From Hahella sp. (GTDB taxonomy: Bacteria; Pseudomonadota; Gammaproteobacteria; Pseudomonadales; Oleiphilaceae), in the NCBI GenBank assembly GCA_028280065.1, contig JANQMN010000071.1, forward strand, positions 1 to 64,000: a DNA stretch of 64,000 nucleotides. The letters are read 5' to 3'. Position numbers and translations under genes: made by a program. Below are positions 25,536 to 58,513 of this stretch, piece by piece (position 1 is the first letter of the stretch; every line of letters begins with the position of its first letter). The notes under the pieces are model-generated. The model saw only the letters and a program-made list of their open reading frames with translations, did no database searches and was not told where the DNA came from.

Positions 25536-28500
25536 TTGGTTACGGAAATTCCGGGTTATTCGGTTAAGGAAACGCTATTCAGCACTGAGAATACGGTTGT
25601 ACTCCGTGTGGAGAGAAACCGTGATGGTGTCCAGGTGATACTCAAACAGTTGGTAACCGAATACCCTACCCCAGGGCAGCTATCACGCTTTTCATTCGGT
25701 TATGAAGTCTTAAGTCAGTTTGACCATCCCAACATTATCAAACCATTGGAATGGATTAGCGGATCCGGCAGGATTAAGCGCGAGCAAGACGAAGAGTCCT
25801 TAGATTGCCACCCGGCGATTATTTTCGAAGACCTTCAGTGCATTGATCTGTTTAGTTTCGTAAAACGCTTCGATAACGGCTACCTGCCATTGGAATCCTT
25901 TCTCAATATCGCGGTTCAACTCGCCGAAGCGCTGAGTGTGGTCCATTATCACCAAGTCATCCATAAGGACCTTCATCCAGGCAATATTATTGTCAATCCG
26001 GATTCGGGAGTGACTCAAATTATTGACTTCGGGCTGGCATCGCTATTGTCCAGAGAACAACCCTTGCTGGAAGCGCCGGATCAAATAGAGGGCGTGCTGT
26101 CGTTTATTTCGCCGGAACAGTCAGGAAGGATGAACCGGGCTCTGGACTACCGGTCGGATTTTTACACGCTGGGCGCCACATTTTACTACCTCCTTGCGGG
26201 CCATCCGCCTTTCGAAGCTGACGATGCACTCGGTCTCGTCCATGCGCATATCGCTAAAGAGCAAACGCCGATTTCAGAGATTCGCTCCGATATCCCGCCG
26301 GTGCTGTCGAAAATTGTCGACAAGCTTTTAAAGAAAACGGCTGAGGAGCGCTACCAAAGTGCAATAGGCTTGAAGCAGGACCTTATGAAGGTTCGCAACG
26401 CCGTGGCTACCAATAAACCGGTACCGAATTTCCCGCTGGGCATGGAAGACATCTCCGACCGCTTTCAAATTCCCCAGAAGCTCTATGGCAGAGAGGAAGA
26501 AGTGGAAAACTTGATGCGCTGTTTTTTTAAAGCGGCCAGCGGAGTTCCACGCATGCTTTCGGTATCGGGCTACTCCGGAATTGGCAAATCTGCACTGGTA
26601 CACGAAGTACACAAGCCGATCGCGGCATACAACGGCTTATTCTGCGCTGGAAAATTTGACCAGTTTCAAAAGAATATCCCCTATTCGGCTTTACAAACGG
26701 CACTAAAGAACTGGATTCAGCAAACCCTGGCTCTTACTGAAAAGCGGCTGGCGGTCAAACGAGAACAACTATGCGCCCAATTAGGCGCAAATGCGCGGGT
26801 ATTGGTTGATTTCATGCCGGAGTTCGCCCTGGTTTTAGGAGAATTGCCCCCGGTCCCCCGACTTGGAGCGGATGAAACACAAAATCGACTGCACCTGGTA
26901 TTCCAACAGTTTATTAAGATAATCACTTATGAACGTCCGTTGGTGCTGTTTATCGACGACTTGCAATGGGCGGATCGAGGCACCCTGAATCTACTCCCGT
27001 TACTCATGAGCGAGGAAGGTTGCCGGCTATTGGTGATCGTGGCTTACCGGGACAATGAAGTAAGTCCGAATCACCCGGCTATCCACACTTTAAACAAGAT
27101 CCGTTCTGCAGAATTCAACGCCGGTGAGTTGACTGAAATCACCCTTGGACCGCTCTCGCTGCCGCAGATTTCCGACTTACTTAACGACGCGTTGCACCGA
27201 CCAGCCTCCGAGGTCAAACCGCTGGTCAACCTGGTACATGTAAAAACGGCAGGAAATCCCTTTTTTATCAATGAATTCCTAAAGACACTCTACACCGAAC
27301 AACTGCTCAACTTCGACCTTTCCAGACAACGCTGGTACTGGAATATCGAGGATATTAAGGCAAAGGATATCACCGATAATGTTGTCGACTTGATGCTGGA
27401 TAAGATGGAGCAGTTGCCGCAGGAAACCCAGGATCTGATTCAGCTGGCCGCCTGTGTCGGCAGCAGGTTTGACCTGGAAATGCTCGCCCGTCTGGCGGAC
27501 CAATCGCTGATCCGGGTGACAAGGACAATTTGGCCGGCGCTGCGCGACGGTTTGCTACTGCAAGATGGCGGGGATTGGTATCTGGGCATGATTCAGCAGA
27601 CGACCAATCAATCGCCCAATAGCGCCGATTTTGAACATGCTCCTTCGCAATTCACGCCGATGGCGCCGCAATGCCGCTTCTTACATGATCGGATGCTGCA
27701 AGCCGCATACCGGTCCATGTCTTCGAATCGACGCCAGGACACCCATTTGACCGTGGGAAGGATGTTGCTCAAGCATTATGATCAGGACATTTCCAACGAT
27801 GACTGTTTCGCCATTGTCGGGCAACTAAACAAAGCCCGCTCACTCATAAAAGATGAACAGGAAAGACAGTTGCTGGCGAATCTTAACCTCCGGGCCGCGA
27901 AACAGGCCTGGAATGCCAGTGTCTGGCAGGCTGCCTCGGAATATAGCGAAGTCGGCATCGAGATGTTGCCTGAGAATCCATGGAGTTCCTATTTCGACGA
28001 AGCTATTCAGCTCTATCACATCAAAGCGGAATGCGAGTATTTGCGTGGTAATCCGCAGGAATCGGAACAATACTATGAAGTCTTGTTTACCCATCTCGAA
28101 GATGATTTGTTCAGAGCGCAGATATGCTCAACCCGGCTGATTCAATCCATCGGACGCGGAGATTGGCGGCAAGGCGTGGAATTCGGTTACAGGGGATTAT
28201 CCTATATTCACCTTACCTTACCCGCCAAGACCGAGCTGTCTTTAGCGGCGGAAACCGAGCAGCGCTTTTTAACGGAATACCTGAAAACCCATTCAATCAA
28301 CTCGGTTTCGACACTGCCTGAGATGGAAAACCCGGTGTCGCTTACGGCGCTTTGCATTCTCGCCAATCTGGCGATATGCGGTACCATTCTGGGAAGAACG
28401 GACCTGCGGGATTACTGCACGCTGAAAGGTTGCAACATGATCTTTCTGGAAGGCAAATCAGATTATGCCGCCATGCAGCTCACCTGTTACGCCTATTATC

Positions 28501-30908
28501 TTCAGGCTATCGGGCATTTCGACAGAGCTAATGCGGCCGGGCGCCAGGCCAAGCTGCTGTCGGAAACCTATATCCAATGCCGGGAAGTGGCGAATTGCTA
28601 CAACATGCTGGCAAATGCGATCTGGTACCTCAAATCGCCGTTGAAAGAATGCTGCGACCTTTTTCGCAAAGGCATGCACCTCGGTTTGGAAAACGGCGAA
28701 ATCGCCCGCGCCGGCATTAATCGGGGCAACATTCTGGTTACCGAGTTGTCACAGGGCAATACTCTAGAAGCCATCAAACACGACGCCTCGACAACTGAAA
28801 AATTCCTGATTAACAAAGCCGTGTTTCACCCTGTAACAGGATTCATCAAAAGACTTGTTATCGCTCTCACCGAAGATAGCGAGCAGACCTCTGAAGCGCT
28901 CAGCGCTTCGCAATTTAAACCGGAGCTTTATACTCAGATACAGGGCAGTATGCATTATGCCTATCTATCGCACTACCGTGCACAGCTTTGCTTCTGGCAG
29001 GAAAACTATGCAGAGGCACTGAAGGAATGCAGGCGAACGGAAGAATTGGGCAGTTTGATTCCCAGTGTCTGCTGGAAGGCCGAACACTATTTACTGTACG
29101 GCCTGCTACTTTTACGTTTGCCAAATGAAGCAGACGTCAAGGAGAACGAAAGTTACGTTCGAATGCACAAAAACCTGGAGGAACTCGCCCGTTTGTATGC
29201 CCCGAACTTTGAGCATAAGTATTTACTGTTGCAGGCGGAGAAGTCCCGCTGGTCAGGGGATGATATGCGCCTCACCTGCGGTTATTACCGGGATTCAATA
29301 AACTCCGCCCAACAGCATGGGTTCGTACAGTACCAGGCGCTGGCCAGCGAGCTGTTCGCTGAGTTCTGGATGGACAATTACTACGAAACCCTGGCCGAAC
29401 CCTACATAAACGAGGCGTTGTATTTGTACCGCCGCTGGGGCTGCCTGACCAAGGTTGTGCGCCTGCAGAAACGCAACCTATCCTTCCTGGCGAGATTCGA
29501 AAACCGCACCTGGCGCAGCCTTTCACGCTCCGAATCCAGAGACAACGAGGCAAACCAAACCCTGGATATGGCTTCGGTGATGAAGTCGGCTCAAGTCATA
29601 TCCAGTGAGTTACAAATCAAACAACTGTCAGCCAAGGTTTTGGAAGTTATCGCCGAATGCGTTGGGGCGACATCGGCATCCTTAGTAATTCAATTGGGCA
29701 ATAGCGCGCGCGTTCATGCAACTGTGGATAGAGACCAAACGATCAACATTCCGGAACCGCCGGTGCCTCTTGAGGAATGCAAGGAGCTACCGGTTAACGT
29801 GGCCAATTACGTGTTGCATAGCACTGAAATTGTCAATATAGGCGATGCGCTGATTGAACGGGCATTTGCGGACGACCCTTACATTATTTCTCACCAGCCG
29901 CGCTCCATTCTATGTGTACCAATCGAATACCGTGACAAGATAATGGGGGTTCTCTATCTGGAAAACCGTCTTAGCATCAATGCATTTACCGCCGATAGGT
30001 TAGCTGTCATTAATTTGCTGCTGGCCCAGGCGGCAATTTCGTTTGAGAATGCACAGCTCTTCAAGGAAGTGACACAGCTCAACCAGACGCTGGAGCAAAA
30101 AGTGGAGCAACGGACGGAAGATCTGAATCGGGCGGTCAGGGAACTGAAGTCAGCAAATGAAGATTTGAACTCGTTCAGCTACAGCGTGTCCCACGATTTA
30201 AGAGCTCCGCTCCGAAGCATGAAAGGTTTCAGCCAGGCGATTCTGGATGAATATGGCGACTCGCTTGAGGAGGATGTACACAGCATGCTAATGCGGATAA
30301 TCCGCAACGGCAAGAAGATGTCCGATCTGATCGAAGGCCTTTTGGAGCTTTCCAGGGTTCAACGCCGCGAAATCCAACTCAACCGGGTTAATCTATCGGG
30401 ATTGGTTGCCGAACTTTTCGGAGAAATGCGCGAACGCAACCCGGACCAAAAGGTTTCCACCAATTACGTCAGCAATTGCTGGGTAGAAGCCGATGAACGC
30501 ATGCTCTATTCCGCCCTGGAAAACCTGATAAACAATGCCTGGAAATACACCAGCTATAATCCTGAAGGGCGGGTGGAGTTTGGCGTTTACCAGCAAAAAG
30601 GCACTAAAGTACCCTTCGGTGTCGGCGAAGTCCCCGGCGAAATCGCACCTGACCGGAATATCTACTTTATCCGGGATAATGGCGCGGGATTCGATACATC
30701 CCGAGCAGGAAAAATTTTTGGCAGCTTTCAACGCCTGCATTCGGAAAAACAATTCCAAGGCACAGGCGTCGGCCTGGCCACCGTCAAACGGGTGTTTGAA
30801 AAACACGGATGCAATGTCTGGGCGGATTCATCACCAGATAAAGGGGCAACTTTCTACTTCACCTTAAAACCTGTCGGATATAAGACGGCAAACATCCTTC
30901 ATTCGTAG
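25536..30908 (+). CDS. Giant Ser/Thr kinase-AAA ATPase-GAF-histidine kinase
   Basis: The 1790-residue signalling protein has four parts. Residues about 1-290 are a protein kinase domain (VILKQL lysine near 38, catalytic HKDLHPGN near 146, DFGLAS near 163). Residues about 320-560 are an AAA_16-type ATPase (P-loop GYSGIGKSALVHE near 346, Walker B LVLFIDDLQWAD near 468). Residues about 600-1330 are a long helical, TPR-like sensor region. Then come a GAF domain (about 1360-1510) and a histidine kinase with the phospho-accepting histidine in SYSVSHDLRAPL (near 1551) and an ATPase domain (NLINNAWKYTS, DNGAGFD, GTGVGLATV). This matches the trifunctional kinase family of cyanobacteria and some proteobacteria. 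The TTG start is supported by GTGAGG. It precedes the NRPS-PKS gene by about 380 bases; a regulatory link is inferred only. Confidence 0.93.
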   Translation: MVTEIPGYSVKETLFSTENTVVLRVERNRDGVQVILKQLVTEYPTPGQLSRFSFGYEVLSQFDHPNIIKPLEWISGSGRIKREQDEESLDCHPAIIFEDLQCIDLFSFVKRFDNGYLPLESFLNIAVQLAEALSVVHYHQVIHKDLHPGNIIVNPDSGVTQIIDFGLASLLSREQPLLEAPDQIEGVLSFISPEQSGRMNRALDYRSDFYTLGATFYYLLAGHPPFEADDALGLVHAHIAKEQTPISEIRSDIPPVLSKIVDKLLKKTAEERYQSAIGLKQDLMKVRNAVATNKPVPNFPLGMEDISDRFQIPQKLYGREEEVENLMRCFFKAASGVPRMLSVSGYSGIGKSALVHEVHKPIAAYNGLFCAGKFDQFQKNIPYSALQTALKNWIQQTLALTEKRLAVKREQLCAQLGANARVLVDFMPEFALVLGELPPVPRLGADETQNRLHLVFQQFIKIITYERPLVLFIDDLQWADRGTLNLLPLLMSEEGCRLLVIVAYRDNEVSPNHPAIHTLNKIRSAEFNAGELTEITLGPLSLPQISDLLNDALHRPASEVKPLVNLVHVKTAGNPFFINEFLKTLYTEQLLNFDLSRQRWYWNIEDIKAKDITDNVVDLMLDKMEQLPQETQDLIQLAACVGSRFDLEMLARLADQSLIRVTRTIWPALRDGLLLQDGGDWYLGMIQQTTNQSPNSADFEHAPSQFTPMAPQCRFLHDRMLQAAYRSMSSNRRQDTHLTVGRMLLKHYDQDISNDDCFAIVGQLNKARSLIKDEQERQLLANLNLRAAKQAWNASVWQAASEYSEVGIEMLPENPWSSYFDEAIQLYHIKAECEYLRGNPQESEQYYEVLFTHLEDDLFRAQICSTRLIQSIGRGDWRQGVEFGYRGLSYIHLTLPAKTELSLAAETEQRFLTEYLKTHSINSVSTLPEMENPVSLTALCILANLAICGTILGRTDLRDYCTLKGCNMIFLEGKSDYAAMQLTCYAYYLQAIGHFDRANAAGRQAKLLSETYIQCREVANCYNMLANAIWYLKSPLKECCDLFRKGMHLGLENGEIARAGINRGNILVTELSQGNTLEAIKHDASTTEKFLINKAVFHPVTGFIKRLVIALTEDSEQTSEALSASQFKPELYTQIQGSMHYAYLSHYRAQLCFWQENYAEALKECRRTEELGSLIPSVCWKAEHYLLYGLLLLRLPNEADVKENESYVRMHKNLEELARLYAPNFEHKYLLLQAEKSRWSGDDMRLTCGYYRDSINSAQQHGFVQYQALASELFAEFWMDNYYETLAEPYINEALYLYRRWGCLTKVVRLQKRNLSFLARFENRTWRSLSRSESRDNEANQTLDMASVMKSAQVISSELQIKQLSAKVLEVIAECVGATSASLVIQLGNSARVHATVDRDQTINIPEPPVPLEECKELPVNVANYVLHSTEIVNIGDALIERAFADDPYIISHQPRSILCVPIEYRDKIMGVLYLENRLSINAFTADRLAVINLLLAQAAISFENAQLFKEVTQLNQTLEQKVEQRTEDLNRAVRELKSANEDLNSFSYSVSHDLRAPLRSMKGFSQAILDEYGDSLEEDVHSMLMRIIRNGKKMSDLIEGLLELSRVQRREIQLNRVNLSGLVAELFGEMRERNPDQKVSTNYVSNCWVEADERMLYSALENLINNAWKYTSYNPEGRVEFGVYQQKGTKVPFGVGEVPGEIAPDRNIYFIRDNGAGFDTSRAGKIFGSFQRLHSEKQFQGTGVGLATVKRVFEKHGCNVWADSSPDKGATFYFTLKPVGYKTANILHS

Positions 30909-31196: not shown

Positions 31197-31233
31197 TCAA
31201 GCAGGGATGCATGACAAACATTCCTGCACCGTT

Positions 31234-31261
31234 GATTCGAATACCTAACAACATTCGAATC
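31234..31261. promoter_or_regulatory. Second leader dyad (9-bp perfect arms)
   Basis: GATTCGAAT at 31234-31242 and ATTCGAATC at 31253-31261 are exact complements separated by 10 bases. The site ends 30 bases before the preferred NRPS-PKS start codon. If translation began at the earlier ATG (31211) the dyad would be coding, so its symmetry supports the later start. Confidence 0.6.
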
Positions 31262-31291
31262 CCTTTCAACAAATGGAGTGTGAGGAATAAA

Positions 31292-34200
31292 ATGACTAAA
31301 GTTACAGAAGAAATCTCAACAGTACCCCTAAGTCTCGGACAGGAGGCCATGTGGGTTCAGCATAAGCTCGCTGACACCGCTGTTTACAACAACCATTTCG
31401 TCTGGGAATTGCCGCCAGACATCGATCTGCAAACGTTAAGACAAACAATTTGCTGCCTTACCGCCAGACACCTGGCCCTTAGAGCCACATACCACTTTGC
31501 CGGTGGCGCAGTCATGCTGACAGACAATCCGGACTATGCAGGGGAGATTCGAGAACAACGGATTGATGATCTTGAGGATGATCAACTCAAAGCCGTGCTC
31601 GACCGGGAGTTGAACTGCCGGTTCAATTTGTCGGAGCAGCCTGTGGTCTACTGGAAGCTCTTCAGAAGAAAAACCCTTGCCCCCGTCTTTGGCTTGTTTA
31701 TGCAGCATACCAATATCGATCTGTGGTCCTGCATGGTGGTTCTTAATGAACTCAGGGATGTATTTTCCCATATTTCCGCAACAGGAGAGCCGCCAAAGGC
31801 TAGGGTATCCTGCAACTTAAGCCAATACAACGCTTGGCAGAGGAAGTACCCGGATACAGAGGGGAGCGTGGGAGAAAAAAACTACTGGAACAAAGCCCTG
31901 CAGTCTGCTTCCTTTGCCTTAAATCTGCCGACGGATTATCCGCCGCAGGATAAACTCGGCTGCCGTGGGGAATACTATCAGTTCTTTCTGGACCAGCAGG
32001 CGGTGGATAAGCTTCATCAAGTCGCCAAATCACAGGGTGTTTCGCTTTTTGCGATTTGGTTCAGTCTTTATCATTTGCTGTTACACCGCCTCACTCAACA
32101 GGAGGACATTGCGGTCGGCACCGCCGTGGGAGGCCGAACGGAGCAGTTCGGCAAAACCTTCGGCTACCTGTCAAATTCACTCGTCATTCGGCATATACAT
32201 CACACCTCGGGTACTTTTATCGACTACCTGCTTGAGTTCAATCAAGCCATCGACAAGGGTTTGCAACACCAGTTATATCCCTATTCCCAGGTAATAAAGA
32301 ATCTGGGAGACAGCCTGGGCACGCCCAAGAATTTTCAAACCATATTCGTCTGGGAGAACATCAATCGTTTTGAAAACCGCGACGAAGCATTCGTGCATCT
32401 GGACGATAACGGCCGTCAAATCTGGGATTTCAAAAAGGCCGGTACCTGGAAACGTCTTACCCGTAAGCAGCAGTTGGACGATATGCAACTGGTTTTCAGG
32501 CTGAACAAGTTCAAAGAGAGGCTGCTGGGTGCGATCGATTACAACACCGATTTGTTCAAACTTGAAACCATCCGAAGGTTTGCCGAAATCTTTAATAATC
32601 TTTTGGCCCAGGTGGCGGAAGATCCCGGTATTCCGCTGGCGCAACTCTCGCTACTTCCGGACAACGAACGGGAAAAAATTGCTTATCGCTGGAACGATAC
32701 GACGGAATTCTTTTCCTTGGCAGACTCCTTTCCCGATTCTTTTGCCCGCAACGTCCTTCGAACCCCCGAAAAAACGGCCTTGGTTCATGGCAGGTCAACC
32801 TACACCTACGCCGCAGTCAACGAACGCGCCAACTTGGTAGCGCAGAGCTTGTTAGCGCAGCATCTGCAAGCGGAAAACATCGTTGGGGTATTTCTCGACC
32901 GTTCGGCAGACGCCGTTATTGCGATCCTCGGCATCATGAAAGCAGGCGGCGCCTACCTGCCGCTGGACCCGGACTACCCCCCGGAACGCTTGAAATACAT
33001 TATTGAAGATGCCCGGCCCGCATTTATCATTAGCGACCGCAAGCTGCAAAACCGGATTCCTGCGAATTCTGCCGAGACACAGCTATTTTTCATGGAAAGA
33101 GCCGTTGAAGACAGCCGGACTCCGACCCAGGCACTTCCCACAATCAAGCCATCGCAATTGGCATATGTTATTTATACTTCAGGATCCACAGGCAAACCGA
33201 AGGGAACACTGATTGAGCACAGCGGCCTGATTGCGCAAATCCATGCGCAAGCCAAGACATTCGGCATCGACCAGGACGACAATATACTGCAGTTTGCATC
33301 ATTGAACTTCGATGCCTCTATCTACGAAATCGTTGCAGCCTTACACAACGGCGCAACCCTCCATGTAGGCAATAGAAAGGAGCTGTTGGGTGATAATTTA
33401 CTGCGTTTTCTAAAACAGCATGAAATTAGCTGGTGTTTAATTCCACCCGCGCTGTTAAGTGTCTTAACCCCGGAAGACCTGCCTCGGCTGAAGACCCTGA
33501 TCGTGGGAGGCGATGCCTGCTCTCAGGAACTCGCTAAAAAATGGTCTGTCGGTAGAAACTTCTACAATGCCTACGGGCCGACCGAATCCACCATAGTGGC
33601 AACCATTGCCAAGGTAGACGGCTCCACTCCTCCCCCAATCGGCAAGCCCATCGCCAACACCCAAACCTATATCCTGGATCCCAATTTACATCCGCAGCCC
33701 ATCGGCATTCCCGGCGAACTTCATATTGGCGGCGCATGCCTGGCCAGGGGTTACCTGAATCGGCCGGATCTGACCTCGGCTAAGTTTATTTCCAATCCGT
33801 TTAATCAGGATCCCCGCGCGAAACTTTACAAAACCGGAGACCTTTGCCGCTATCGGGAAGACGGCAATATCGAATTTCTCGGTCGCATCGATCACCAGGT
33901 AAAAATACGTGGTTTCAGGGTAGAACTGGGCGAAATTGAGTCTGTCCTGAGAGAGCACCCGAAAGTCCATGATGTGCTCGTCATGGCTCGCAACGATTTG
34001 CCGAGCAGCGACGAAACCAGTCAGCAACTTGCCGCATATGTGGTGAAAAAAGCCGATGCCACGCTGGACATCGAAGCATTGCGCAGCTTTTTGAAAAACC
34101 GCTTGCCGGACTATATGGTACCGGCAGGGTTTGTGGTTTTAGATGCCTTCCCAATGACTCCTAACGAAAAGATCGACCGAAAGGCATTGCCTATTCCGGA

Positions 34201-37200
34201 AGCCGGAACGGACCGCTCCAGGGCGTTCAAGCCCCCACGAAATGCTATCGAGCGCCAAATCGCCGAAGTTTGGCAGCAATGCCTGGGAATAACAGAAGTC
34301 AGTGTCGTCGAAAATTTCTTTGACCTTGGCGGCCACTCATTATTGCTGGCACAGATTCATAACCTTTTGCCCGAGCATCTTCGCGAAGAACTGGAAATGG
34401 TGGACCTGTTTCATTACCCCACGATTCAGTCGCTTGCCAGCCATCTTGAAAGCAATCTTGAAGAGGAAACTGATTTTATTGAGCATGACGATCATGCGGA
34501 ACGATTGAATCTGCGGCGCCGGCAGATGGAAAGCCTCGGCGAGGTGCGAATTGCGATTGTCGGCATGGCGGGACGTTTTCCGGGCGCTGAAACAGTTAAC
34601 GAGTTTTGGGACAACATCTGTCAAAAAACTGAAAGCATCAGCTTCTTTTCCCCCGAACAGTTACGCGCGGCACGAGTGCCCGAAAGCTTGTACGTGCAGC
34701 CAAATTATGTTCCCGCAAAAGGCATCTTGCGTTCCATTTCTGAATTTGACGCTAATTTCTTCAACTTCACTCCTCGCGAAGCGGAAATTACCGATCCACA
34801 ACAGCGGGTATTTCTGGAATGTGCCTGGGAAGCGTTGGAGGATGCCGGCTGTGTGGTTTCAGATTTCGACGGGCGCATTGGCGTCTACGCCGGTATCGGA
34901 TTGAATCGCTACCTGATGAGCAATCTGTCACCGCACACCGATTTGATCGCGGCAGTTGGCGACTATCTCCTGACAATAGGCAACGACAAAGATTTTCTCA
35001 GCTCCAGGGTGGCATACAAGCTTAATCTGGATGGCCCTGCCATGGTTTTACAAACCGCCTGCTCAACCTCGCTTGTCGCCGTGCATACCGCCTGTCAGGC
35101 GTTATTGAATGAGGATTGCGACGCGGCCCTGGCCGGAGGTGTTTCGTTCGGCAGACTGAACAAGACCGGATACTTGTATCAGGAAGGCATGATTATGTCT
35201 AAAGACGGTCACTGCCGGGCCTTCGATGCCGAAGCATCGGGCACGGTGCCGGGTCAGGGATGCGGTGTAGTGGTGCTGAAAAGATTGGATGATGCGTTGC
35301 AGAACAATGACCACATCTACGCCATTATCAGCGGTTCCGGGACCAACAACGACGGTTCCAATAAAACAGGCTATACTGCTCCTTCGATCGAAGGACAGGC
35401 CAAGGCGATCAAAATGGCACAGGCAAGTGCCAACATCTCGGCATCACAAGTCAGTTATGTAGAAGCCCACGGCACCGGAACTTCCATAGGCGATCCCATT
35501 GAAATGGAAGGGCTGCAACAAGCTTTCAAAACGAATGGCAATACCGGCAAGACCGGGAGTTGTGCCATCGGCGCCGTAAAGACCAACATCGGCCATCTGG
35601 ATGCGGCTGCCGGAATCGCCGGACTGATTAAGACCGCCAAGGCGCTAGAGATGAAAAAACTGCCGCCTTCGCTCAACTTCTCGACCCTCAATCCTCAGAT
35701 AAAACTGCGAAAATCGCCCTTTTACATCAATACCGAACTCACCGACTGGGAAACTAACGACTCCCATCGATTTGCCGGTGTTAGTTCATTTGGGATGGGA
35801 GGCACCAATGCTCACGTTATCCTGACGGACGCGCCGAGCCAGATCAGATCTCGAAGCTACCGGCCTTGGAATATTGTTTTGCTGTCCGCCCGCTCAAAAA
35901 CCGCGTTGGAAAAAATGACAGAAAGGCTGGTAAACCATCTAAAAACGCATAAGAAGCAAAGCTTTGCCAATATCTGTTTTACCTTGCATAGTGGCCGCGA
36001 GGTGTTTCCCTATCGGCGTCACCTGGTCTGCAAAAACCGGGCAGAGGCAATAGCCAACCTCTCTCCGGTAAATCCTCGTCACGTCAATACCTCCCACTAT
36101 GTGGACCGGGCGCACAAAATCATATTCATGTTTTCCGGTCAGGGCTCGCAATACAAGAACATGGGACAATTTCTATATCGGGTCGAAAAACCGTTCAGGG
36201 AATCCATAGATCTTTGCCGCAATATGTTAAAGAACAAGTTTATCCAGATTTTTGAGGAGCTTAGCAGCGAAGACATTCATGGTTTCACCGACAAACTACA
36301 TCAAACTTATATCACCCAACCGGCGCTATTCATTTTTGAGTATGCGCTTGCCAAAATGCTTATCTCATGGGGATTAAAACCCGATCTGATGATCGGCCAT
36401 AGTTTGGGGGAATTTGTGGCGGCCTGTTTGGCAGGAGTATTTACCCTTGACCAGGCCCTTGAACTGGTGACCATTCGCGGCTATCTGATTCAGGGTTTGG
36501 CAGCCGGCGATATGTTGTCAGTTAACCTTCCGGAGGAAGATGCGGCGTTGCTGACCCATCACGACGTCTCGCTGGCGGCAGTGAACGGAGCACGCCGTTG
36601 CGTGCTTTCCGGTTCCGGCAAAGCCATTCAATATCTGCACAATCTGCTGGATGAGCGCGGTGTCGACAACCGGATTCTGCATACCTCTCATGCCTTTCAC
36701 TCCCATATGATGGACCCTATTCTGGAAAGGTTCCGCGGCTATGTCGCCAGACGTCAACCACAAGCGCCGCAAATTCCCTTTATATCAAGTGTCAGCGGCA
36801 AATCGATTACTCCCGAACAAGCACAATCTCCCGATTATTGGGTGCAACACCTGCGGCAGACCGTCCGCTTTCACGACGGGCTCAACAGTATTTTTTCCAA
36901 TGCGGAGCAAGATGAAGCATGCTTTTGCCTGGAAATCGGTCCGGGTAAGGTCCTGTCTTCACTGGCAAACCAACACCCTGCAAAACGTGCTCAAGACTGG
37001 ATTTCACCCACAGTTCATCACGCCTATGAGGATATCTCCGACACGGAATTTCTCCTGAAAGTCATCGGCCGCCTGTGGGAGCAAGGTGTCAAGATCGACT
37101 GGGATGCTTTTCACAAAGACCGGCAACATTATCGCGTACCCTTGCCAACCTATCCCTTCGAACGCAAACGCTATTGGGTAAGTTCTCAAGTAGCCGAAAG

Positions 37201-38371
37201 CGGGGTCGCCGAACTAACCCCTCAGCCCACTGACATTCCTGTAGCGGAGGAGAAGCAGGCCGAGGAACAGCAGGAAGGTATGGTCGAGAATCCGGGAGTT
37301 GAACCAACCAACGCGATCGAACGCGCCGTGAAAGAAATCTGGCAATTGTTGTTGGGACGGAAGGATTTTTCCATTTACGACGACTTCTTTGAGTTAGGCG
37401 GGGATTCCTTGATGGCCGTCAGCATTGTCGGCCAGCTAAATGAAAGGTTCAAAGTACCCCTGGGAAGCCATGTCCTGATGAAGCATCCGACAGTGTCGGG
37501 ATTGGCAGACTATCTCGCCGCGAACGGCGTGGATTCCAAGTCTACGCAGAGAGACAAGCCGCCGATGCCGGATAGTTGCCTGATTCGAATTCAGGAAGGC
37601 AACGACACCCGGCTACCACTGTTTATGGTGCATCCCATCGGCGGTGAAGTGATTTTCTACCGAGATCTGGCCCATCAACTCGGCAAGGACCAACCCTTAT
37701 TCGCTTTTCAAGCACCGAGTTTGTCGGGTGCGAAACCGATCGACTCCATATATCGATTGGCGGAAACTTACAATGCCGAAATGCAAAGGAAAAACTTCGA
37801 ACCGCCCTATTTGCTTGGAGGAAGCTCATTTGGCGGATTGGTGGCGCTAGAAATGGCAAGGCAGCTTAGCTTCCAGGGTCTGGAAGTAAAACTGATTGTA
37901 ATGGTGGATACGCCGGCCCCCCATGAAATGCCGACAAACCTGCAGGACTCCGCGGCAATTTTGCATTATCTTCTGGAAGACAAACTTGCATTATCTCTCG
38001 AGAAACTGCGGGAGCTCGATGAAGAATCGCAAATTAACTATGTACTTGAGGAAGCAAGGGTGCAGAACAAGGCTTCGGTAATTCCTCCACATCTCGGCCA
38101 GACTTTATTCCAAACCTGGCTGGCACATCAACGGGCGACGGTGCGCTATCATCCGGAGCCTTACGAAGGCGATGTGGTATATTTCAGACATACCGAGCCC
38201 TTGCGGGACTTCCCCGCTATGCCTCATCTTGCCTGGAAGCCCCTCATCCAAGGCAGCTTTAGCGTGTACCAGATTCCGGGAAATCACGTGACGATGAACT
38301 ATCCACCGCACGTAAAAGTACTGGCCAACCACTTGAAGCCGGTAATAGCGGAGATAATGGCGATATCTTAA
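31292..38371 (+). CDS. Hybrid NRPS-PKS megasynthase (C-A-PCP-KS-AT-ACP-TE)
   Basis: From the ATG at 31292 (GAGG six bases upstream) the product is 2359 residues; an ATG at 31211 would add 27. Domains in order: condensation (QHTNID, where the usual HH pair is QH but the second His and the Asp remain); adenylation (YTSGSTGKPKG, NAYGPTEST, YKTGD, RIDHQVKIRGFRVELGE); PCP (DLGGHSLL); ketosynthase (Cys in TACSTS, His in EAHGTGTSIGDP, NIGHLDAAAG); acyltransferase (GHSLGE, and HAFHS, which predicts malonyl-CoA); ACP (ELGGDSLM); thioesterase (GSSFGG). There is no KR, DH or ER. By alignment to GrsA the specificity residues read DAYLIGAIVK, suggesting a hydrophobic amino acid. The product should be one amino acid (possibly N-acylated) extended by one unreduced ketide and released by the thioesterase. 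The phosphopantetheinyl transferase at 55150 could activate both carriers. Confidence 0.93.
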   Translation: MTKVTEEISTVPLSLGQEAMWVQHKLADTAVYNNHFVWELPPDIDLQTLRQTICCLTARHLALRATYHFAGGAVMLTDNPDYAGEIREQRIDDLEDDQLKAVLDRELNCRFNLSEQPVVYWKLFRRKTLAPVFGLFMQHTNIDLWSCMVVLNELRDVFSHISATGEPPKARVSCNLSQYNAWQRKYPDTEGSVGEKNYWNKALQSASFALNLPTDYPPQDKLGCRGEYYQFFLDQQAVDKLHQVAKSQGVSLFAIWFSLYHLLLHRLTQQEDIAVGTAVGGRTEQFGKTFGYLSNSLVIRHIHHTSGTFIDYLLEFNQAIDKGLQHQLYPYSQVIKNLGDSLGTPKNFQTIFVWENINRFENRDEAFVHLDDNGRQIWDFKKAGTWKRLTRKQQLDDMQLVFRLNKFKERLLGAIDYNTDLFKLETIRRFAEIFNNLLAQVAEDPGIPLAQLSLLPDNEREKIAYRWNDTTEFFSLADSFPDSFARNVLRTPEKTALVHGRSTYTYAAVNERANLVAQSLLAQHLQAENIVGVFLDRSADAVIAILGIMKAGGAYLPLDPDYPPERLKYIIEDARPAFIISDRKLQNRIPANSAETQLFFMERAVEDSRTPTQALPTIKPSQLAYVIYTSGSTGKPKGTLIEHSGLIAQIHAQAKTFGIDQDDNILQFASLNFDASIYEIVAALHNGATLHVGNRKELLGDNLLRFLKQHEISWCLIPPALLSVLTPEDLPRLKTLIVGGDACSQELAKKWSVGRNFYNAYGPTESTIVATIAKVDGSTPPPIGKPIANTQTYILDPNLHPQPIGIPGELHIGGACLARGYLNRPDLTSAKFISNPFNQDPRAKLYKTGDLCRYREDGNIEFLGRIDHQVKIRGFRVELGEIESVLREHPKVHDVLVMARNDLPSSDETSQQLAAYVVKKADATLDIEALRSFLKNRLPDYMVPAGFVVLDAFPMTPNEKIDRKALPIPEAGTDRSRAFKPPRNAIERQIAEVWQQCLGITEVSVVENFFDLGGHSLLLAQIHNLLPEHLREELEMVDLFHYPTIQSLASHLESNLEEETDFIEHDDHAERLNLRRRQMESLGEVRIAIVGMAGRFPGAETVNEFWDNICQKTESISFFSPEQLRAARVPESLYVQPNYVPAKGILRSISEFDANFFNFTPREAEITDPQQRVFLECAWEALEDAGCVVSDFDGRIGVYAGIGLNRYLMSNLSPHTDLIAAVGDYLLTIGNDKDFLSSRVAYKLNLDGPAMVLQTACSTSLVAVHTACQALLNEDCDAALAGGVSFGRLNKTGYLYQEGMIMSKDGHCRAFDAEASGTVPGQGCGVVVLKRLDDALQNNDHIYAIISGSGTNNDGSNKTGYTAPSIEGQAKAIKMAQASANISASQVSYVEAHGTGTSIGDPIEMEGLQQAFKTNGNTGKTGSCAIGAVKTNIGHLDAAAGIAGLIKTAKALEMKKLPPSLNFSTLNPQIKLRKSPFYINTELTDWETNDSHRFAGVSSFGMGGTNAHVILTDAPSQIRSRSYRPWNIVLLSARSKTALEKMTERLVNHLKTHKKQSFANICFTLHSGREVFPYRRHLVCKNRAEAIANLSPVNPRHVNTSHYVDRAHKIIFMFSGQGSQYKNMGQFLYRVEKPFRESIDLCRNMLKNKFIQIFEELSSEDIHGFTDKLHQTYITQPALFIFEYALAKMLISWGLKPDLMIGHSLGEFVAACLAGVFTLDQALELVTIRGYLIQGLAAGDMLSVNLPEEDAALLTHHDVSLAAVNGARRCVLSGSGKAIQYLHNLLDERGVDNRILHTSHAFHSHMMDPILERFRGYVARRQPQAPQIPFISSVSGKSITPEQAQSPDYWVQHLRQTVRFHDGLNSIFSNAEQDEACFCLEIGPGKVLSSLANQHPAKRAQDWISPTVHHAYEDISDTEFLLKVIGRLWEQGVKIDWDAFHKDRQHYRVPLPTYPFERKRYWVSSQVAESGVAELTPQPTDIPVAEEKQAEEQQEGMVENPGVEPTNAIERAVKEIWQLLLGRKDFSIYDDFFELGGDSLMAVSIVGQLNERFKVPLGSHVLMKHPTVSGLADYLAANGVDSKSTQRDKPPMPDSCLIRIQEGNDTRLPLFMVHPIGGEVIFYRDLAHQLGKDQPLFAFQAPSLSGAKPIDSIYRLAETYNAEMQRKNFEPPYLLGGSSFGGLVALEMARQLSFQGLEVKLIVMVDTPAPHEMPTNLQDSAAILHYLLEDKLALSLEKLRELDEESQINYVLEEARVQNKASVIPPHLGQTLFQTWLAHQRATVRYHPEPYEGDVVYFRHTEPLRDFPAMPHLAWKPLIQGSFSVYQIPGNHVTMNYPPHVKVLANHLKPVIAEIMAIS

Positions 38372-38404: not shown

Positions 38405-38454
38405 CCCCCGGCAAAGCCGGGGGCTTTCAATTTCGCGAGCCGCTCAAAGCGGCT
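38405..38454 (+). terminator. Two adjacent GC-rich hairpins after the NRPS-PKS gene
   Basis: CCCCCGGC-AAA-GCCGGGGG (38405-38423) begins 33 bases after the stop codon and is followed by CTTTCAATTT. A second hairpin, AGCCGCT-CAA-AGCGGCT, is at 38438-38454. The first is a good candidate transcription terminator. The pair also resembles REP-like hairpin repeats found beside mobile sequences. Confidence 0.7.
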
Positions 38455-38791: not shown

Positions 38792-39664
38792 TTAATTTGG
38801 TTGCATGGATTTCAAAAACATTTGCAGGCAATCCTCAGTAGCTTGATTAAGCTCTCTAACACCCGCAGTCGCCACTTCACCCACAACTGATCTAAGAGGT
38901 CTTTTACCAGTGGGTAACGATAGTAGCTCAAGCACTTTATCTGCTACTTGTTGGGGATCGGGGGGAGTCGATTGTTCCATTATGGCGACCATGGCCTCAA
39001 CCATTTGATCGGGTACTTTGGCAATGTCTCCGTAGCTTGAAAGTACGTTCTCTTTTTCCGGAACTAAACGTTTGTTGTGTAACTCCGAGGGAAATGCCCC
39101 AGGTTCAATTGCGCAAAAATCTATACCCAGGGGGCCAAGCTCATAAGTATATGACTCCACAAATGCTTCAATGGCAAATTTCGATGCATTATATGCACCC
39201 AGAAAAGGAAAGCATATTCTTCCTGCCGCGCTGGTTATATGTATCAATAATCCTTTACCCGCTTGTTTCATGTAGGGTAGGACTGCATGGTTCAGCCGGA
39301 CGGGCCCGAAGGTATTCACTTCAAATACATGCTGGATTTGAGATAGCGAGAACGACTCTATTATACCAAGTGCACCCAAACCGGCATTATTTACTATTGC
39401 ATCAATTCTCCCGTCTTTTTGGATTATTTGACTAACTGCTCGATTCACCGATTCATCGCTTAAAATATCCAATTCTATTATTTCGATTCCGCAATTGTGG
39501 TCGCTGACGAAATCAAGCAAGTTTACTTTTGCCTGCTTATTTCTTTCTTCGGGGGAGCGCATTGTAGCGTAAACTTTGTGTCCTGCTAGGGCTAGCGTTT
39601 TGGAAATTAATGCTCCAAACCCGCTGCTACAACCGGTAATCAAGACATTTTGCTTTTCGGCCAT
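38792..39664 (-). CDS. Short-chain dehydrogenase/reductase
   Basis: The 290-residue SDR has TGCSSGFGALIS (cofactor loop, near residue 11), NNAGLGALG (near 92), the catalytic serine in ITSAAGR and the active-site pair in YNASKFAIEAF (near 158). It resembles the 17-beta-hydroxysteroid-dehydrogenase-like group of ketone reductases. It is the last gene of a leftward series TonB receptor, two citrate-synthase-like proteins, SDR, with 51 bases to the preceding gene. A role in reducing a keto product of that pathway is possible but not shown. Confidence 0.85.
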   Translation of the reverse strand: MAEKQNVLITGCSSGFGALISKTLALAGHKVYATMRSPEERNKQAKVNLLDFVSDHNCGIEIIELDILSDESVNRAVSQIIQKDGRIDAIVNNAGLGALGIIESFSLSQIQHVFEVNTFGPVRLNHAVLPYMKQAGKGLLIHITSAAGRICFPFLGAYNASKFAIEAFVESYTYELGPLGIDFCAIEPGAFPSELHNKRLVPEKENVLSSYGDIAKVPDQMVEAMVAIMEQSTPPDPQQVADKVLELLSLPTGKRPLRSVVGEVATAGVRELNQATEDCLQMFLKSMQPN

Positions 39665-39715
39665 GGTATTAAGTCGCTTTGTTTATTAACGTTGATTTTC
39701 AACAGGTTTAGTAAA

Positions 39716-40564
39716 TTATGATTTAGGTATGGTACGGGATGGTTGACCTTGATATTCGATATCGTCGCATCGAAGGGGTAAGAAAGTCCCTGCAGGACGG
39801 TGGAACGTATCTAAGTAACACGCCGTCACTCCACTACATACCAACATTGAAAACATTTGATAAATTTCTTCTGTGGTAAATCCTTGGTCGGATAAGAAGG
39901 CGGAAACATAGCCGTTGATATTCATACCCTCTTCAAACTTATCCATTAAAACCTTCTCAATTTCATAAGCTAAAGACAGGTGGCTCCCTTCCTCAAAACC
40001 AAGTTTCTTCGATACTCTTTCCATGGTTTCCAAACGTTCATCACCTTTCGCAATTGGGCGAATATAACCAACAATGAATGGTTTTCCCCCTCTTGCGGAT
40101 GTGGCTTGGCTTACTATTTCTTCTGGAGTCACGCCTTTTTCATACTTCTCTAGTGCTCCTTGAATAAAATTAACTCCATCAATGAGTGGCAATACACCAT
40201 ATGCTTTGGAGTCTGTGGCCATGGCACCTATTGCAGTACCTATGACCACGGATGTTCTAGCCGTCCCAGCCAGAGCTCCAATTTGGTTACACCAAATCCG
40301 AGGATCCGGCCAACTCAAGCAACCATAGACAGCCTCCACCCAATCGCCTAGTGCCCGGTCGACCATCTTGCCGGTTGCATGGAGAATTAGGATTTGAAAG
40401 TAGGATTTTACTCCAACCAGATCATCTAACATCGAATAGCCATGGCTGAAAACTCCCTTGCCGGGAAACCAGCCACCAGTTTTACTTACTATTTTATTCC
40501 GGAGATTATCAAGTAACGCAATTTGTTGTGGATCGCTGTGAGTTGTCTTACTGTTCGACGACAT
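39716..40564 (-). CDS. Citrate-synthase-family protein B (probably missing catalytic residues)
   Basis: The 282-residue all-helical protein shows citrate-synthase-superfamily style, notably WPDPRIWCNQIGALAGTARTS (near residue 85) and NINGYVSAFLSDQGFTTEEIY (near 215). Where catalytic citrate synthases have a GHxxx...DPR histidine segment, this reads VGYIRPIAKGDER, with Tyr in place of His. The usual NVD aspartate segment reads NIN. I therefore infer it does not catalyse alone and may be the partner of the adjacent paralogue (40548-41381), whose gene overlaps it by 17 bases. It is also shorter than a normal citrate synthase (about 370-430 residues). The exact reaction is unknown. Confidence 0.65.
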   Translation of the reverse strand: MSSNSKTTHSDPQQIALLDNLRNKIVSKTGGWFPGKGVFSHGYSMLDDLVGVKSYFQILILHATGKMVDRALGDWVEAVYGCLSWPDPRIWCNQIGALAGTARTSVVIGTAIGAMATDSKAYGVLPLIDGVNFIQGALEKYEKGVTPEEIVSQATSARGGKPFIVGYIRPIAKGDERLETMERVSKKLGFEEGSHLSLAYEIEKVLMDKFEEGMNINGYVSAFLSDQGFTTEEIYQMFSMLVCSGVTACYLDTFHRPAGTFLPLRCDDIEYQGQPSRTIPKS

Positions 40565-41381
40565 AGTCTTGATCTCTTACGAAAGGCATAGCTGTAATTG
40601 GTTTGTTTGCAAGCTCTAGACCATGAGCTACAAGTCCCGGAGCACCAAGTAGTTGATATAAGGCCCCGCCAAACCTGGGCTGAAAACCCAGATCAGCAAA
40701 CACTGCCGCTGCGACCCCGGGCAGCAACCATCCAATACCCCGAGGTTCCAGTAGTTCTGCTAGGGCGTGCCCCCATGCCAGTACACTTCCCGACCCAGGT
40801 AGAGAAACCAATCTCTCGGCAATTTGCTTAGCTATAAGGTCAACCCCTCCATGCAAACGACCATACCCAAGGACGCAGGATTCATCCATCAAGGATTCTC
40901 CTGGCTCTACATTACTTCTTTCTGCAAAAAGATCCTGGACATATTGATCAGGGCGTACTCGTTGGTTCTTTCGATAGAACCGTATAATTTGCTCAACTTC
41001 ACCTCCACCTAAATACTTTCCACCTAAAACAGCAGAGGCAATGGGAAGAATATTTATTGGATCCGTTTTTCCTACACCCACATTCATTGCTGCACGAGTT
41101 GCAGGATGGCGTGGTCCAGGATTAATTAACGCCACCATTAATGTCTGAAGGATTTCTGATTCTTCTGCGGACGGCAGTTCACCTCTGAACAATAAGTAGA
41201 ACATTTCGACAAAGGAGCATTTGTCCATCAAGTCAAATAGGTCATAGCCGTGGCATTGAATGTTTTTTGCAATATATGGATTATCGTCAGACGCTTGTTC
41301 CGACCATAGTCGAGTTATTGTTCGTTGAGTAAATGGTTCATTGCGGCTGCGCACCTGATCATGCCGTCGCTGCTTAGTCAC
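40548..41381 (-). CDS. Citrate-synthase / citryl-CoA-lyase-like protein A
   Basis: The 277-residue protein resembles short citrate-synthase/citryl-CoA-lyase relatives. It has NPGPRHPATRAAM, then GYGRLHGGVDLIA (the HGG histidine region, near residue 175), and WGHALAELLEPRG (the second histidine region, near 205). The usual catalytic-aspartate segment is replaced by DLGFQPRFGGALYQLLGAPGLVAHGLE. It may bind or cleave/condense a CoA ester of a carboxylic acid. The GTG start is preceded by GGAGGTGAT, nearly a full match to the ribosomal anti-SD. It overlaps protein B, and stoichiometric expression as a complex is a reasonable inference. It follows the TonB receptor gene by 20 bases. Confidence 0.68.
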   Translation of the reverse strand: MTKQRRHDQVRSRNEPFTQRTITRLWSEQASDDNPYIAKNIQCHGYDLFDLMDKCSFVEMFYLLFRGELPSAEESEILQTLMVALINPGPRHPATRAAMNVGVGKTDPINILPIASAVLGGKYLGGGEVEQIIRFYRKNQRVRPDQYVQDLFAERSNVEPGESLMDESCVLGYGRLHGGVDLIAKQIAERLVSLPGSGSVLAWGHALAELLEPRGIGWLLPGVAAAVFADLGFQPRFGGALYQLLGAPGLVAHGLELANKPITAMPFVRDQDYVVEQ

Positions 41382-41401
41382 TTCATCACCTCCACCATCG
41401 C

Positions 41402-43552
41402 TTACTTAAAGGTATAACTCAGTTCGGCCCATACGCTTCTGCCTTCGAGCGGATAGTCATCCGGGATTGTGCCATTGCTGGGTTCACGAGCATCTTCGTC
41501 CGTGAGATTGCGAACAGCTAGGGCAAAATCGACACCAGGCAAGATTTCCTTACCGCGAAGTGTTAAGTCTATTAGTGTGTAGTCATCGATTTCTTCACGG
41601 GGGTCTATAGAGTTTCGCTTGCGGTCTCCAACCCAATTTAACTTACTGTGAATAAACCAATTTGGTTGAAATTCCCAGAATGTAGATACGGTAAATTGCT
41701 GATTTGGCGTATCCGCAATATTAGTGTCTGACTTAGCGTCCTCAGCCTTTTGCCAGGAATAATTAAAATTTACCTGCCATTTTTTCTGGGGTTTCCAATT
41801 TGCCACCCATTCAAAACCGTGCCCATCTTGATCCCTTGCATTTTGCGCGGTTTGAGTAGTAGCGCCCTCATCCGGCACATATTCAATCATATCGCGAGCT
41901 TGATAGTGAAAAAGGTTAAGAGAAGTTTGCAATTGCTCACTCAAATTGAAATGTAAAGCAATTTCATAGGTATCTATTTTTTCCGGGTCAAGATCTGATC
42001 GCCCCAGGTTGACAGGATTGTTTTGATTAAAGAGCTCTCCAAATGAAGGAGCCCTAAATGCACTACCATATAGAAATTTGGTGGTAAGACTCTTGTTTGT
42101 TTCCCAAACTAAGGCCACTCTGGGATTAATAGTTTCGCCAAAATCTGAATACTTGTCATACCTTACTCCGGTTGTCAGGTCCCAGTCCGACGTTATGTGC
42201 CATTCGTCCTGAACGGATAGATAACGAATTGTTCTGGATTTGTCTGGTGCGAATACGAAAGGAGAATTGCTCACATTTGTCAACGTGCCATCTACCACCT
42301 GTTCCGTACCATCTATAACGTTTGGGCCAAAGTTCTTGGTCTCATTGGTGTTAAGGGATTGATAACGTAGTCCGAAGGCAACACGTAATCTGTGGGAATC
42401 GAAGCCAGAGTATATGGACACAAAGTCAAACTGACTGTCTTCAGATATTCCTCCAGGGTTTCCCAAATAACCATCAGGAAATTGGACAATGCCTATAGGC
42501 GTTGCAAAATCGATATTACCATCGCTTCCTATCGGAAGAACGGTTCCCTCAGGAAGTACGTTATAGGTAGATTGAGTGTCATAGTATAAATAACTAAGTC
42601 GTATGTTATTCTCCCACTCATCTGCCCAATCGCCTGTACTATAACTAATGTCGCCTAAAAATAGATCGTCGTCATTGGTTCCCTTGGAATCCAATGCTTC
42701 TGCAATACCCGCTCCAAGTCCGGAGTTGGCAGCATGCCAGCTCCAAAGGTTTATCTTCCAATTAGGATCTCCAAACGAGATATGGGTGTCCAGTATTTCG
42801 TAACGAGTCGATAGGGGACCTGGAGCATTGGAAGCAGTTGTACCTAAGGCACTATCGAGAGCAGATTGCAAATCTGACTGTACCCGTCGATCCTTGTCCC
42901 CATCGCTTGTCTGATAAGCGATACTAAAACTTGCATCCCAATTTCCAAGAACTGTTGAAGTGCTTGCCCAAAGATCTCGCATATCGAAAGAACCTGCGCG
43001 CGCGCCAAATTCACTGTGACCTAATGTTGAAGCATCCTTAGTAATGACATTAATAACACCGGAATAGGCATCTGCTCCATAAATTGCAGAACCCGGGCCA
43101 CGGATAACCTCGACTCTGTGGATGCTAGCGATTGGCAGGCGAAAGAGTACAGGGCGTCCTCCTGAGTAGCTAAACTGGACGGGGACACCATTCATTAACA
43201 ACAGGACGTGCGGGTTAAAGCCTGTATGGATACCTCGTATTGAGTACACAGAGTCCATTCTTGCTGTTGTGGAGCGAGCAATATGTACCCCGGGTATCCC
43301 TTCCAGAACCTCCTCAAGATTGCGTGCTCCCATTGCTTCAATCTCAGCAGCGGTAACGACGGATGCCGTGGCCGGCGCTTTGTCCAATGGCGTGCTATTA
43401 CCCGTGGCAATGGTTATCTCAATCTGTCCTAGTTGATCTAGAGACATATTGTAAAAACCCTCCAGACCAAAATCTTCATCAGTTTCCGCTGCGAATCCTG
43501 AGGAGCAGAACAACATGATTACGTGTAAGGTCCGTGCATTTAGAATTGGCAT
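41402..43552 (-). CDS. TonB-dependent outer-membrane receptor (FepA/BtuB-like group)
   Basis: From the ATG at 43552 the product is 716 residues, with a signal peptide (about 1-20, ending GFAAE). Upstream in-frame starts would add up to 22 residues. The plug (about 45-165) has ATASVVTAAEIEAMGARNLEEVLEGIPGVH and VEVIRGPGSAIYGADAYSGVINVITK, followed by a beta-barrel ending WAELSYTFK. The style is that of catecholate siderophore, vitamin B12 or small-organic receptors. It heads a tight leftward series with two citrate-synthase-like genes and an SDR, so the imported compound may be their substrate. No Fur box or cobalamin riboswitch was recognised upstream. Confidence 0.88.
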   Translation of the reverse strand: MPILNARTLHVIMLFCSSGFAAETDEDFGLEGFYNMSLDQLGQIEITIATGNSTPLDKAPATASVVTAAEIEAMGARNLEEVLEGIPGVHIARSTTARMDSVYSIRGIHTGFNPHVLLLMNGVPVQFSYSGGRPVLFRLPIASIHRVEVIRGPGSAIYGADAYSGVINVITKDASTLGHSEFGARAGSFDMRDLWASTSTVLGNWDASFSIAYQTSDGDKDRRVQSDLQSALDSALGTTASNAPGPLSTRYEILDTHISFGDPNWKINLWSWHAANSGLGAGIAEALDSKGTNDDDLFLGDISYSTGDWADEWENNIRLSYLYYDTQSTYNVLPEGTVLPIGSDGNIDFATPIGIVQFPDGYLGNPGGISEDSQFDFVSIYSGFDSHRLRVAFGLRYQSLNTNETKNFGPNVIDGTEQVVDGTLTNVSNSPFVFAPDKSRTIRYLSVQDEWHITSDWDLTTGVRYDKYSDFGETINPRVALVWETNKSLTTKFLYGSAFRAPSFGELFNQNNPVNLGRSDLDPEKIDTYEIALHFNLSEQLQTSLNLFHYQARDMIEYVPDEGATTQTAQNARDQDGHGFEWVANWKPQKKWQVNFNYSWQKAEDAKSDTNIADTPNQQFTVSTFWEFQPNWFIHSKLNWVGDRKRNSIDPREEIDDYTLIDLTLRGKEILPGVDFALAVRNLTDEDAREPSNGTIPDDYPLEGRSVWAELSYTFK

Positions 43553-43817
43553 GCGATAACCCCATGAATTTTTTATTGGCCATCGCATCAAAGATAGTTT
43601 AACTTCGCATGAAAGCAATATTTTCTGGGAAGTAAATCAAGTAGATACCCGCCGAATGGCAAGATAGGTTCAAGAAGAGAGGAAGGGTTACGGGAGTAGT
43701 TCCAATTTGATTGCACGCGGCTCAAAGTCGCCTGTGGTGTTGGATGGAATTAACCCCCGGCTTTAACGTTTCTACTTGCTGGTATAAAGAAGAGTTGGCC
43801 GAAATAACCAGGAGGAT

Positions 43818-46581: not shown

Positions 46582-46584
46582 CCT

Positions 46585-48045: not shown

Positions 48046-48143
48046 CCGCCAAGGTGCGCCACAAGCGCCCTTGCGCTCAATTGTGGGGGTGATAAATAAC
48101 ATTTATACTAACCCCACGAGTCAACTATGCGGGGAAAGGAGAG

Positions 48144-48593: not shown

Positions 48594-48604
48594 GCTGAGA
48601 TTCT

Positions 48605-50284: not shown

Positions 50285-50302
50285 CCGGTTCCAACCCCGG
50301 TG

Positions 50303-52297: not shown

Positions 52298-52307
52298 GCT
52301 CGGCTTG

Positions 52308-52382
52308 TATCAGGCCAAAAGAAGTTATTGTGTCATGAAAACAACGGGTTGCATCGATACGGGGGAACTTAGTCGGTAGGGC
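52308..52382 (+). repeat. Dispersed repeat, copy 2
   Basis: This stretch matches 38541-38615 in the same orientation, including CAAAAGAAGTTATTG, GTCAT and ACGGGTTGCATCGAT. It starts 10 bases upstream of the hybrid kinase start codon. The two copies bracket about 14 kb of signalling and TPP/TonB genes. Confidence 0.6.
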
Positions 52383-52461
52383 CCGAAAGTCAGTTCCGTT
52401 GTATTAACTATAGCAGGAACGGGGGGTTTCGCGACTTGTGAATGGTTTCAGAGGCAAGTAT

Positions 52462-58398: not shown

Positions 58399-58513
58399 TA
58401 TTCCACTCCTCGCTAATGAATAAGCCGGCGTCGCCACTGCCTGCCGGAATGTTCAAGTCCGCATTGAATCGCCAAACCAATTGGGTATTTTTACAATTTA
58501 CCAACTTACTTGG

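Follow-up and report, generated by a model that had tools for sequence, protein, structure and literature searches.

A stand-alone NRPS-PKS protein beside an HstK-type kinase in Hahella sp., a candidate N-acyl tetramate synthetase

In the available part of its description, the MucD/MucE system (mutanocyclin/reutericyclin) has a starter condensation (C) domain in front and a thioesterase (TE) that, by lactam formation, converts an N-acyl-aminoacyl-malonyl chain into a pyrrolidine-2,4-dione (PMC10161427). Its order, C-A-PCP and then KS, ACP and TE, recurs in the protein described here, which would likewise use an acyl group, one amino acid and one malonate without reduction, but MucD/MucE comprises two proteins of Gram-positive origin, with no AT in MucE, whereas our protein is fused and has an AT in cis (PMC10161427). 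A second relative, CorA (coralinone), carries the seven domains C-A-T-KS-AT-ACP-TE within one protein and also leaves the keto group intact; unlike our protein it has an A-T loading module ahead of them, and the part of the paper at hand describes a dipeptidyl chain with a free amine that is hydrolysed, decarboxylated to a ketone and converted to a pyrazinone (PMC10979478). Proteins of about 2350 aa with the stand-alone architecture are encoded on Sinorhizobium plasmids (S. mexicanum, S. americanum and two more assigned by our own HMMs), although these are only 35-37% identical to ours, have a C motif HHxxxD(A/G) and lie among other genes, with no such kinase, TonB or TRAP neighbours in the annotation. 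We know of no kinase, TonB or TRAP link for MucD/MucE. The tetramic acid synthetase TAS1 is fungal, uses acetoacetyl-CoA and closes the ring with its KS domain, and is not known to have AT-ACP-TE; pyreudione synthetase is C-A-T-TE, with no known PKS domains, and was rejected as an equivalent because our protein has KS and AT. TAS1, the tenuazonic acid synthetase, resembles our candidate in being a single NRPS-PKS protein that gives a tetramic acid, as far as the accessible text goes (PMC4640141). Finally, the HstK dual kinases of cyanobacteria, with an N-terminal Ser/Thr kinase, GAF and a C-terminal histidine kinase, include an adjacent co-transcribed pair; the portions of these accounts available mention no NRPS-PKS next to them, and the kinase reported here is gammaproteobacterial (PMC2176072, PMC2442094).

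The window, a stretch of 64,000 nucleotides from Hahella sp. (contig JANQMN010000071.1 of assembly GCA_028280065.1, positions 1 to 64,000), contains an intact NRPS-PKS open reading frame of 2386 aa without an internal stop. Met28 of this frame, at 31292, has GAGGA 5 nt ahead of it and agrees better with the N-termini of the homologues than does 31211; 31292 is therefore probably the true start, giving a protein of 2359 aa. Pfam matches occur in the order Condensation, AMP-binding (aa 511-849, C-terminal part 908-987), PP-binding, ketoacyl synthase (aa 1113-1490 plus extension), acyltransferase (Acyl_transf_1, aa 1638-1903), PP-binding and thioesterase, with two PP-binding matches in all and none above threshold for KR, DH, ER or MT. 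The features of the gene are:

31211 to 38371, +: NRPS-PKS frame, C-A-PCP-KS-AT-ACP-TE, likely start 31292 (ORF, Pfam, homologue alignment)
31319 to 32680, +: condensation domain, aa 37-490, motif QHTNIDLWS (Pfam, motifs)
32741 to 34189, +: adenylation domain, aa 511 to about 993 (Pfam, motifs)
34256 to 34447, +: PCP (Pfam)
34547 to 35680, +: ketosynthase, aa 1113-1490 (Pfam, motifs)
36122 to 36919, +: acyltransferase, aa 1638-1903 (Pfam, motifs)
37325 to 37516, +: ACP (Pfam)
37616 to 38332, +: thioesterase, aa 2136-2374 (Pfam, motifs)

None of the essential motifs is disrupted in the window or, small variations aside, in those homologues that cover them. Both carrier domains keep theirs (LGGHSL and LGGDSL), the KS retains its Cys and two His, and the TE has an ordinary Ser-Asp-His set (GGSSFGG, Asp, GNH); the closest solved relative of this TE by sequence is that of AB3403, which is uninformative on ring closure. 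The AT carries GHSLG and HAFH, which we take to indicate a malonyl-type enzyme. At what we take to be the GrsA positions the A-domain pocket reads DAYLIGAIVK, and those of relatives DAFLVGAVWK and similar; read in this way, the pocket fits a hydrophobic residue. The initial annotation, which had proposed a C-A-PCP-KS-AT-ACP-TE protein without reductive domains that uses a hydrophobic amino acid and malonate, is thus borne out in its architecture by one intact frame, and its substrates fit the pocket and the AT.

From this architecture, the A domain would load a hydrophobic amino acid onto the PCP, the C domain would join to it an acyl group supplied as acyl-CoA or free acyl-ACP, the KS and AT would add one malonate and the TE would release an unreduced N-acyl-aminoacyl-acetyl chain. 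By Pfam the protein has the C-A-PCP and KS-ACP-TE parts of the MucD/MucE type and no reductive domain, and by analogy with that system the likeliest release would be attack by the amide nitrogen to give an N-acyl tetramic acid. Tetramate formation is plausible, and this mode of release, taken by itself, is put forward tentatively, at somewhat below an even chance. Next likeliest is that the TE only hydrolyses, and that the resulting beta-keto acid loses CO2 to leave a methyl ketone with an N-acylated alpha-amino group, comparable to the CorA chain prior to cyclisation to the pyrazinone. In the text available, that route is proposed, with biochemical support, for CorA, whose final seven domains are those of our protein (PMC10979478), and the ordinary catalytic set of our TE suits hydrolysis; against this, our frame starts at the C domain and has no A-T loading module such as supplies the free amine in CorA, so that a pyrazinone cannot form in CorA's way, and we also rejected assignment as a CorA-type 5-methylpyrazinone synthetase. 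We regard hydrolysis as a rather doubtful alternative, the lactam being slightly favoured on the grounds that the nitrogen is expected to carry an acyl group and that a loading module, as a source of a free amine, is lacking. Within the open-licence literature, domain-order strings turned up in the CorA paper alone (a search that would miss other notations), with no product for the stand-alone order and no paper on that order together with HstK, TonB and TRAP. The earlier view, that no characterised pathway was known with exactly this stand-alone order, was too strong as regards relatives, since CorA, in the part of its description seen, carries the seven domains behind A-T.

Full-length homologues of the same architecture were found in five other genomes (G015 by Pfam; G245, G305, G183 and two copies in G359 by our own HMMs), at 47-55% identity to the window protein over the alignment, and this recurrence at such divergence argues that the architecture is not due to chance. 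Two further relatives are cut by contig ends: a C-A-PCP-KS piece in G898, 50% identical to the window, and a more distant piece in G047, 40% identical. The distribution is patchy. Among 163 genomes of the window's family the window genome, G015 and G898 carry the NRPS-PKS, six other species of the window's genus had no match at the search threshold (two candidates scored per genome), and in the other family it occurs in 4 of 15 genomes. A pattern search matched 80 stretches, of which 12 were confirmed as relatives and five as members of the NRPS-PKS family. In a sample of 369 genomes of the class the C-to-TE run appeared, among the matches listed, only in the window's own genome; of the partial matches inspected, G534 has the parts in separate frames on a 6-kb contig and G463 has a multi-gene line.

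Several other candidates were rejected as homologues of the same architecture. Proteins in G008 (L033 6011-15100) and G022 (L034 4409-13431) have, by Pfam, the thioesterase first and then A, PCP, KS, AT and KR, and each adjoins a carnitine acyltransferase gene. G056 and G047:C480 combine A, KS, AT and PP-binding with a class III aminotransferase (Pfam). The G837 protein (L140 857-7537), the one checked among Marinobacter-like matches, starts at the A domain by our own HMMs; this A-PCP-KS-AT type of about 2200 aa recurs in many genomes of genus g12 of the window's family. Those of G160 (L074 6349-17766; KS-KR-ACP-TE-C-A-PCP-KS-AT-ACP-TE by Pfam) and G185 (L075 2415-13829; longer by our own HMMs) reach 3800 aa, with a mid-protein thioesterase ahead of the C-A-PCP-KS-AT-ACP-TE part.

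The NRPS-PKS gene is the last of a same-strand run that encodes, in order, a response regulator-GGDEF-EAL protein, DctQ, DctM, a TonB receptor and an HstK-type kinase, with spacings along the run of 21 bp, an overlap, 109, 48 and 302 bp. The features in and around this run are:

19639 to 21393, +: response regulator-GGDEF-EAL protein (63% reciprocal best hit in G245)
21415 to 21918, +: TRAP small permease DctQ (Pfam)
21908 to 23209, +: TRAP large permease DctM (reciprocal best hits in G183, G305 and the G359 kinase contig)
23319 to 25487, +: TonB-dependent receptor (reciprocal best hits near the homologue in G245, G183 and G305)
25536 to 30908, +: HstK-type giant kinase of 1790 aa, Pkinase, AAA_16, GAF, HisKA and HATPase (Pfam), directly upstream of the NRPS-PKS
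38405 to 38423, no strand assigned: terminator-like hairpin between the NRPS-PKS and a convergent SDR gene (two found, one per strand; 0.7 expected)
52674 to 53885, +: TRAP solute-binding protein DctP, 29 kb from DctQM
55150 to 55947, +: 4'-phosphopantetheinyl transferase

Within a single chain the kinase combines Ser/Thr kinase, GAF, HisKA and HATPase domains, the features given for the HstK family in the available part of PMC2176072. The TonB receptor scored 160.9 bits against TIGR01783, below the curated 223.5 bits, although this was its best-scoring family, and DctP is probably the partner of DctQM despite the 29 kb gap. No terminator-like hairpin was found between HstK and the NRPS-PKS, and as the NRPS-PKS is last in this operon-like set its product is probably made under HstK control. 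The initial annotation had seen no dedicated exporter or tailoring operon directly beside the gene; the view that it is unaccompanied is not upheld, in light of this run and of the conservation of the kinase described below.

Three other groups of window genes lie outside the run. A convergent operon-like set (38792-45620, minus strand) encodes an acetolactate-synthase-like ThDP enzyme, a TonB receptor, two proteins with weak likeness to citryl-CoA lyase/citrate synthase and an SDR; it was rejected as part of the system, none of its genes having a listed match in the compared neighbourhoods, apart from a weak 27% TonB match. The block at 46051-53885 contains a YfiR-like protein, a CHASE8 histidine kinase, a response regulator, a second RR-GGDEF-EAL (57% to the G245 gene), a hybrid kinase and DctP, and may belong to the same system as the NRPS-PKS run. 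At 56866-60357 (minus strand) a sigma-54 activator (GAF-AAA-HTH) accompanies a NifB-like radical SAM protein that has a Nitro_FeMo-Co domain; this is possibly a nitrogen-fixation region.

An HstK-type kinase lies within 3 kb of the NRPS-PKS in six of seven testable neighbourhoods, namely the window, G015, G245, G183, G305 and G898. The exception, G047, has no kinase in the 15 kb upstream, its downstream side being off the contig, and is the most divergent member. G359 falls outside this count, since both contigs with its NRPS-PKS copies break off within 0.5 kb on the upstream side; elsewhere in that genome, one contig encodes DctPQM, a GGDEF-EAL protein and kinases in four long frames and one short frame. 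Kinase and homologue are separated by a GGDEF-EAL gene in G183 and G305 (gaps of 2.8 and 2.4 kb), and the order GGDEF-EAL, TonB, HstK, NRPS-PKS is common to the window and G245. The TonB receptor has reciprocal best hits in G245 (51%), G183 (36%) and G305 (35%), and DctM and DctP have theirs in G183, G305 and G359. Tandem diverged HstK-type kinases, as two to four long frames plus short ones, stand beside TRAP genes in G359:C75 (L125-L126), G305 (L105) and G183 (L106).

Such an arrangement could also arise if an ordinary small antibiotic or siderophore gene lay by chance among common signalling genes. HstK-type kinases, like GGDEF-EAL and TonB genes, are common in some genomes: G015 has about a dozen HstK-type loci, so that the three copies beside its homologue, one of them 56% identical to the window's, weigh less, and there an MFS transporter follows the gene and no TonB or TRAP gene was found within 100 kb. 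On the other hand, at E <= 1e-60 the window genome has only three kinase matches and G245 two, and one in each adjoins the NRPS-PKS, which makes adjacency there unlikely by chance; these two also share the gene order noted above. Moreover, G898, fetched as a test once the pattern had been seen, has an HstK kinase, 46% identical, that starts about 0.2 kb off in divergent orientation. We therefore consider a chance association unlikely, though still a serious competitor to functional linkage.

No second NRPS was found in the organism's own genome, a 6.68 Mb draft of 151 contigs that is 98% complete. PF00668 gave two matches, the NRPS-PKS and, on contig C55, a protein of 463 aa that we read as a wax-ester-synthase-like acyltransferase, so no second NRPS C domain was found by this search of the draft. 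Among eight PF00109 matches only the window NRPS-PKS has a frame above 440 aa, and no other multidomain PKS was detected. PP-binding gave six matches: two are in the NRPS-PKS, three in frames 83, 83 and 92 aa long, and one at the end of contig C131. That contig end (L095 1324-1905, G000) carries an ACP followed by an acyl-AMP-ligase-like start that is cut off, a possible acyl donor for the NRPS-PKS. The genome has two PPTases, and that of the window lies about 17 kb from the gene, as originally stated. Judged by domain order, motifs, the lack of a reductive domain and the lack of a detectable NRPS partner, the protein would be a complete one-protein assembly line, in support of the initial proposal that one polypeptide is self-sufficient.

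The C domain had been proposed to be of the starter type, with QH instead of HH in its motif, and to take an acyl group rather than an upstream peptide as first substrate. The motif is indeed present (QHTNIDLWS, with DL where DG is usual), but the residue ahead of the catalytic His is Q in five, H in two and S in one of the eight family C domains, so that QH was rejected as a mark of starter domains; DLW replaces DGW in seven of the eight. In a 72-row tree, labelled by position by script, with 12 other or unknown rows and several duplicate loci dropped and with several long branches, the eight form one starred clade (98) within an unstarred group of 18 (support 92) that comprises 14 C domains from assembly-line starts and four other N-terminal ones; it holds none of the 34 internal C domains, and four of 18 start domains fall outside it. 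A FastTree run on 97 rows also kept the eight together (0.94), but not with the Sinorhizobium or other start domains; characterised starter sequences are absent from both trees. Against known structures the family profile ranks like an extension C domain: 5u89 (presumably DhbF-type) 254 bits, Txo2 227, Txo1 218, TycC 216, TomB 204, AB3403 200, PvdL 198, SrfA-C 134, CDA synthetase 36-37 and VibH 27. A control with a single internal C domain, one sequence rather than a profile and hence not strictly comparable, ranked the structures in a largely comparable way, except that AB3403 came lower, and scored CDA at 48 bits. A starter-type C domain is thus weakly to moderately supported, favoured by the first tree but not by the second or by the structure ranking, and the starter role is argued by position rather than similarity: the domain is N-terminal in all eight members, and no NRPS or PKS frame lies directly upstream in the neighbourhoods read. 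That it is instead an ordinary extension domain, fed an aminoacyl or peptidyl group by a module encoded elsewhere, would suit the structure ranking, the truncated ACP and ligase-like genes on C131 and the fragmented draft, but is quite improbable given this constant N-terminal position, the placement in the first tree and the single NRPS C domain found in the genome.

Our preferred reading, which we hold with less than full conviction and rate only just short of an even call, is that this one-protein line makes an N-acyl tetramate under HstK control, and that this acidic, perhaps metal-binding product would serve as a signal or metallophore that the TonB and TRAP systems may bring back. The kinase and uptake neighbours hint that the product acts as a signal or binds metal, rather than being an isolated antibiotic. 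A full autoinducer or metallophore circuit, in which the tetramate or its metal complex is re-imported across both membranes by the TonB receptor and TRAP transporter and read by HstK, the GGDEF-EAL regulator then converting this into a c-di-GMP response, is a good deal more speculative and improbable. According to the parts of the relevant papers available, an HstK-family pair of Anabaena is induced by iron deprivation (PMC2176072) and a part in iron homeostasis or in heterocyst differentiation is ascribed to HstK-like kinases (PMC2442094); these iron links make a metal-linked role of the product a reasonable lead, though not an established result. With a length of 7 kb and a PPTase as its sole requirement, the gene should be easy to express, so that the possibility of one-protein tetramate synthesis can be tested directly. 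Should the association with HstK, TonB and TRAP prove functional, the product would be a candidate chemical cue for the large dual kinases, described in the partial accounts at hand mainly in cyanobacteria, and a minimal NRPS-PKS product would be tied to c-di-GMP control in gammaproteobacteria.
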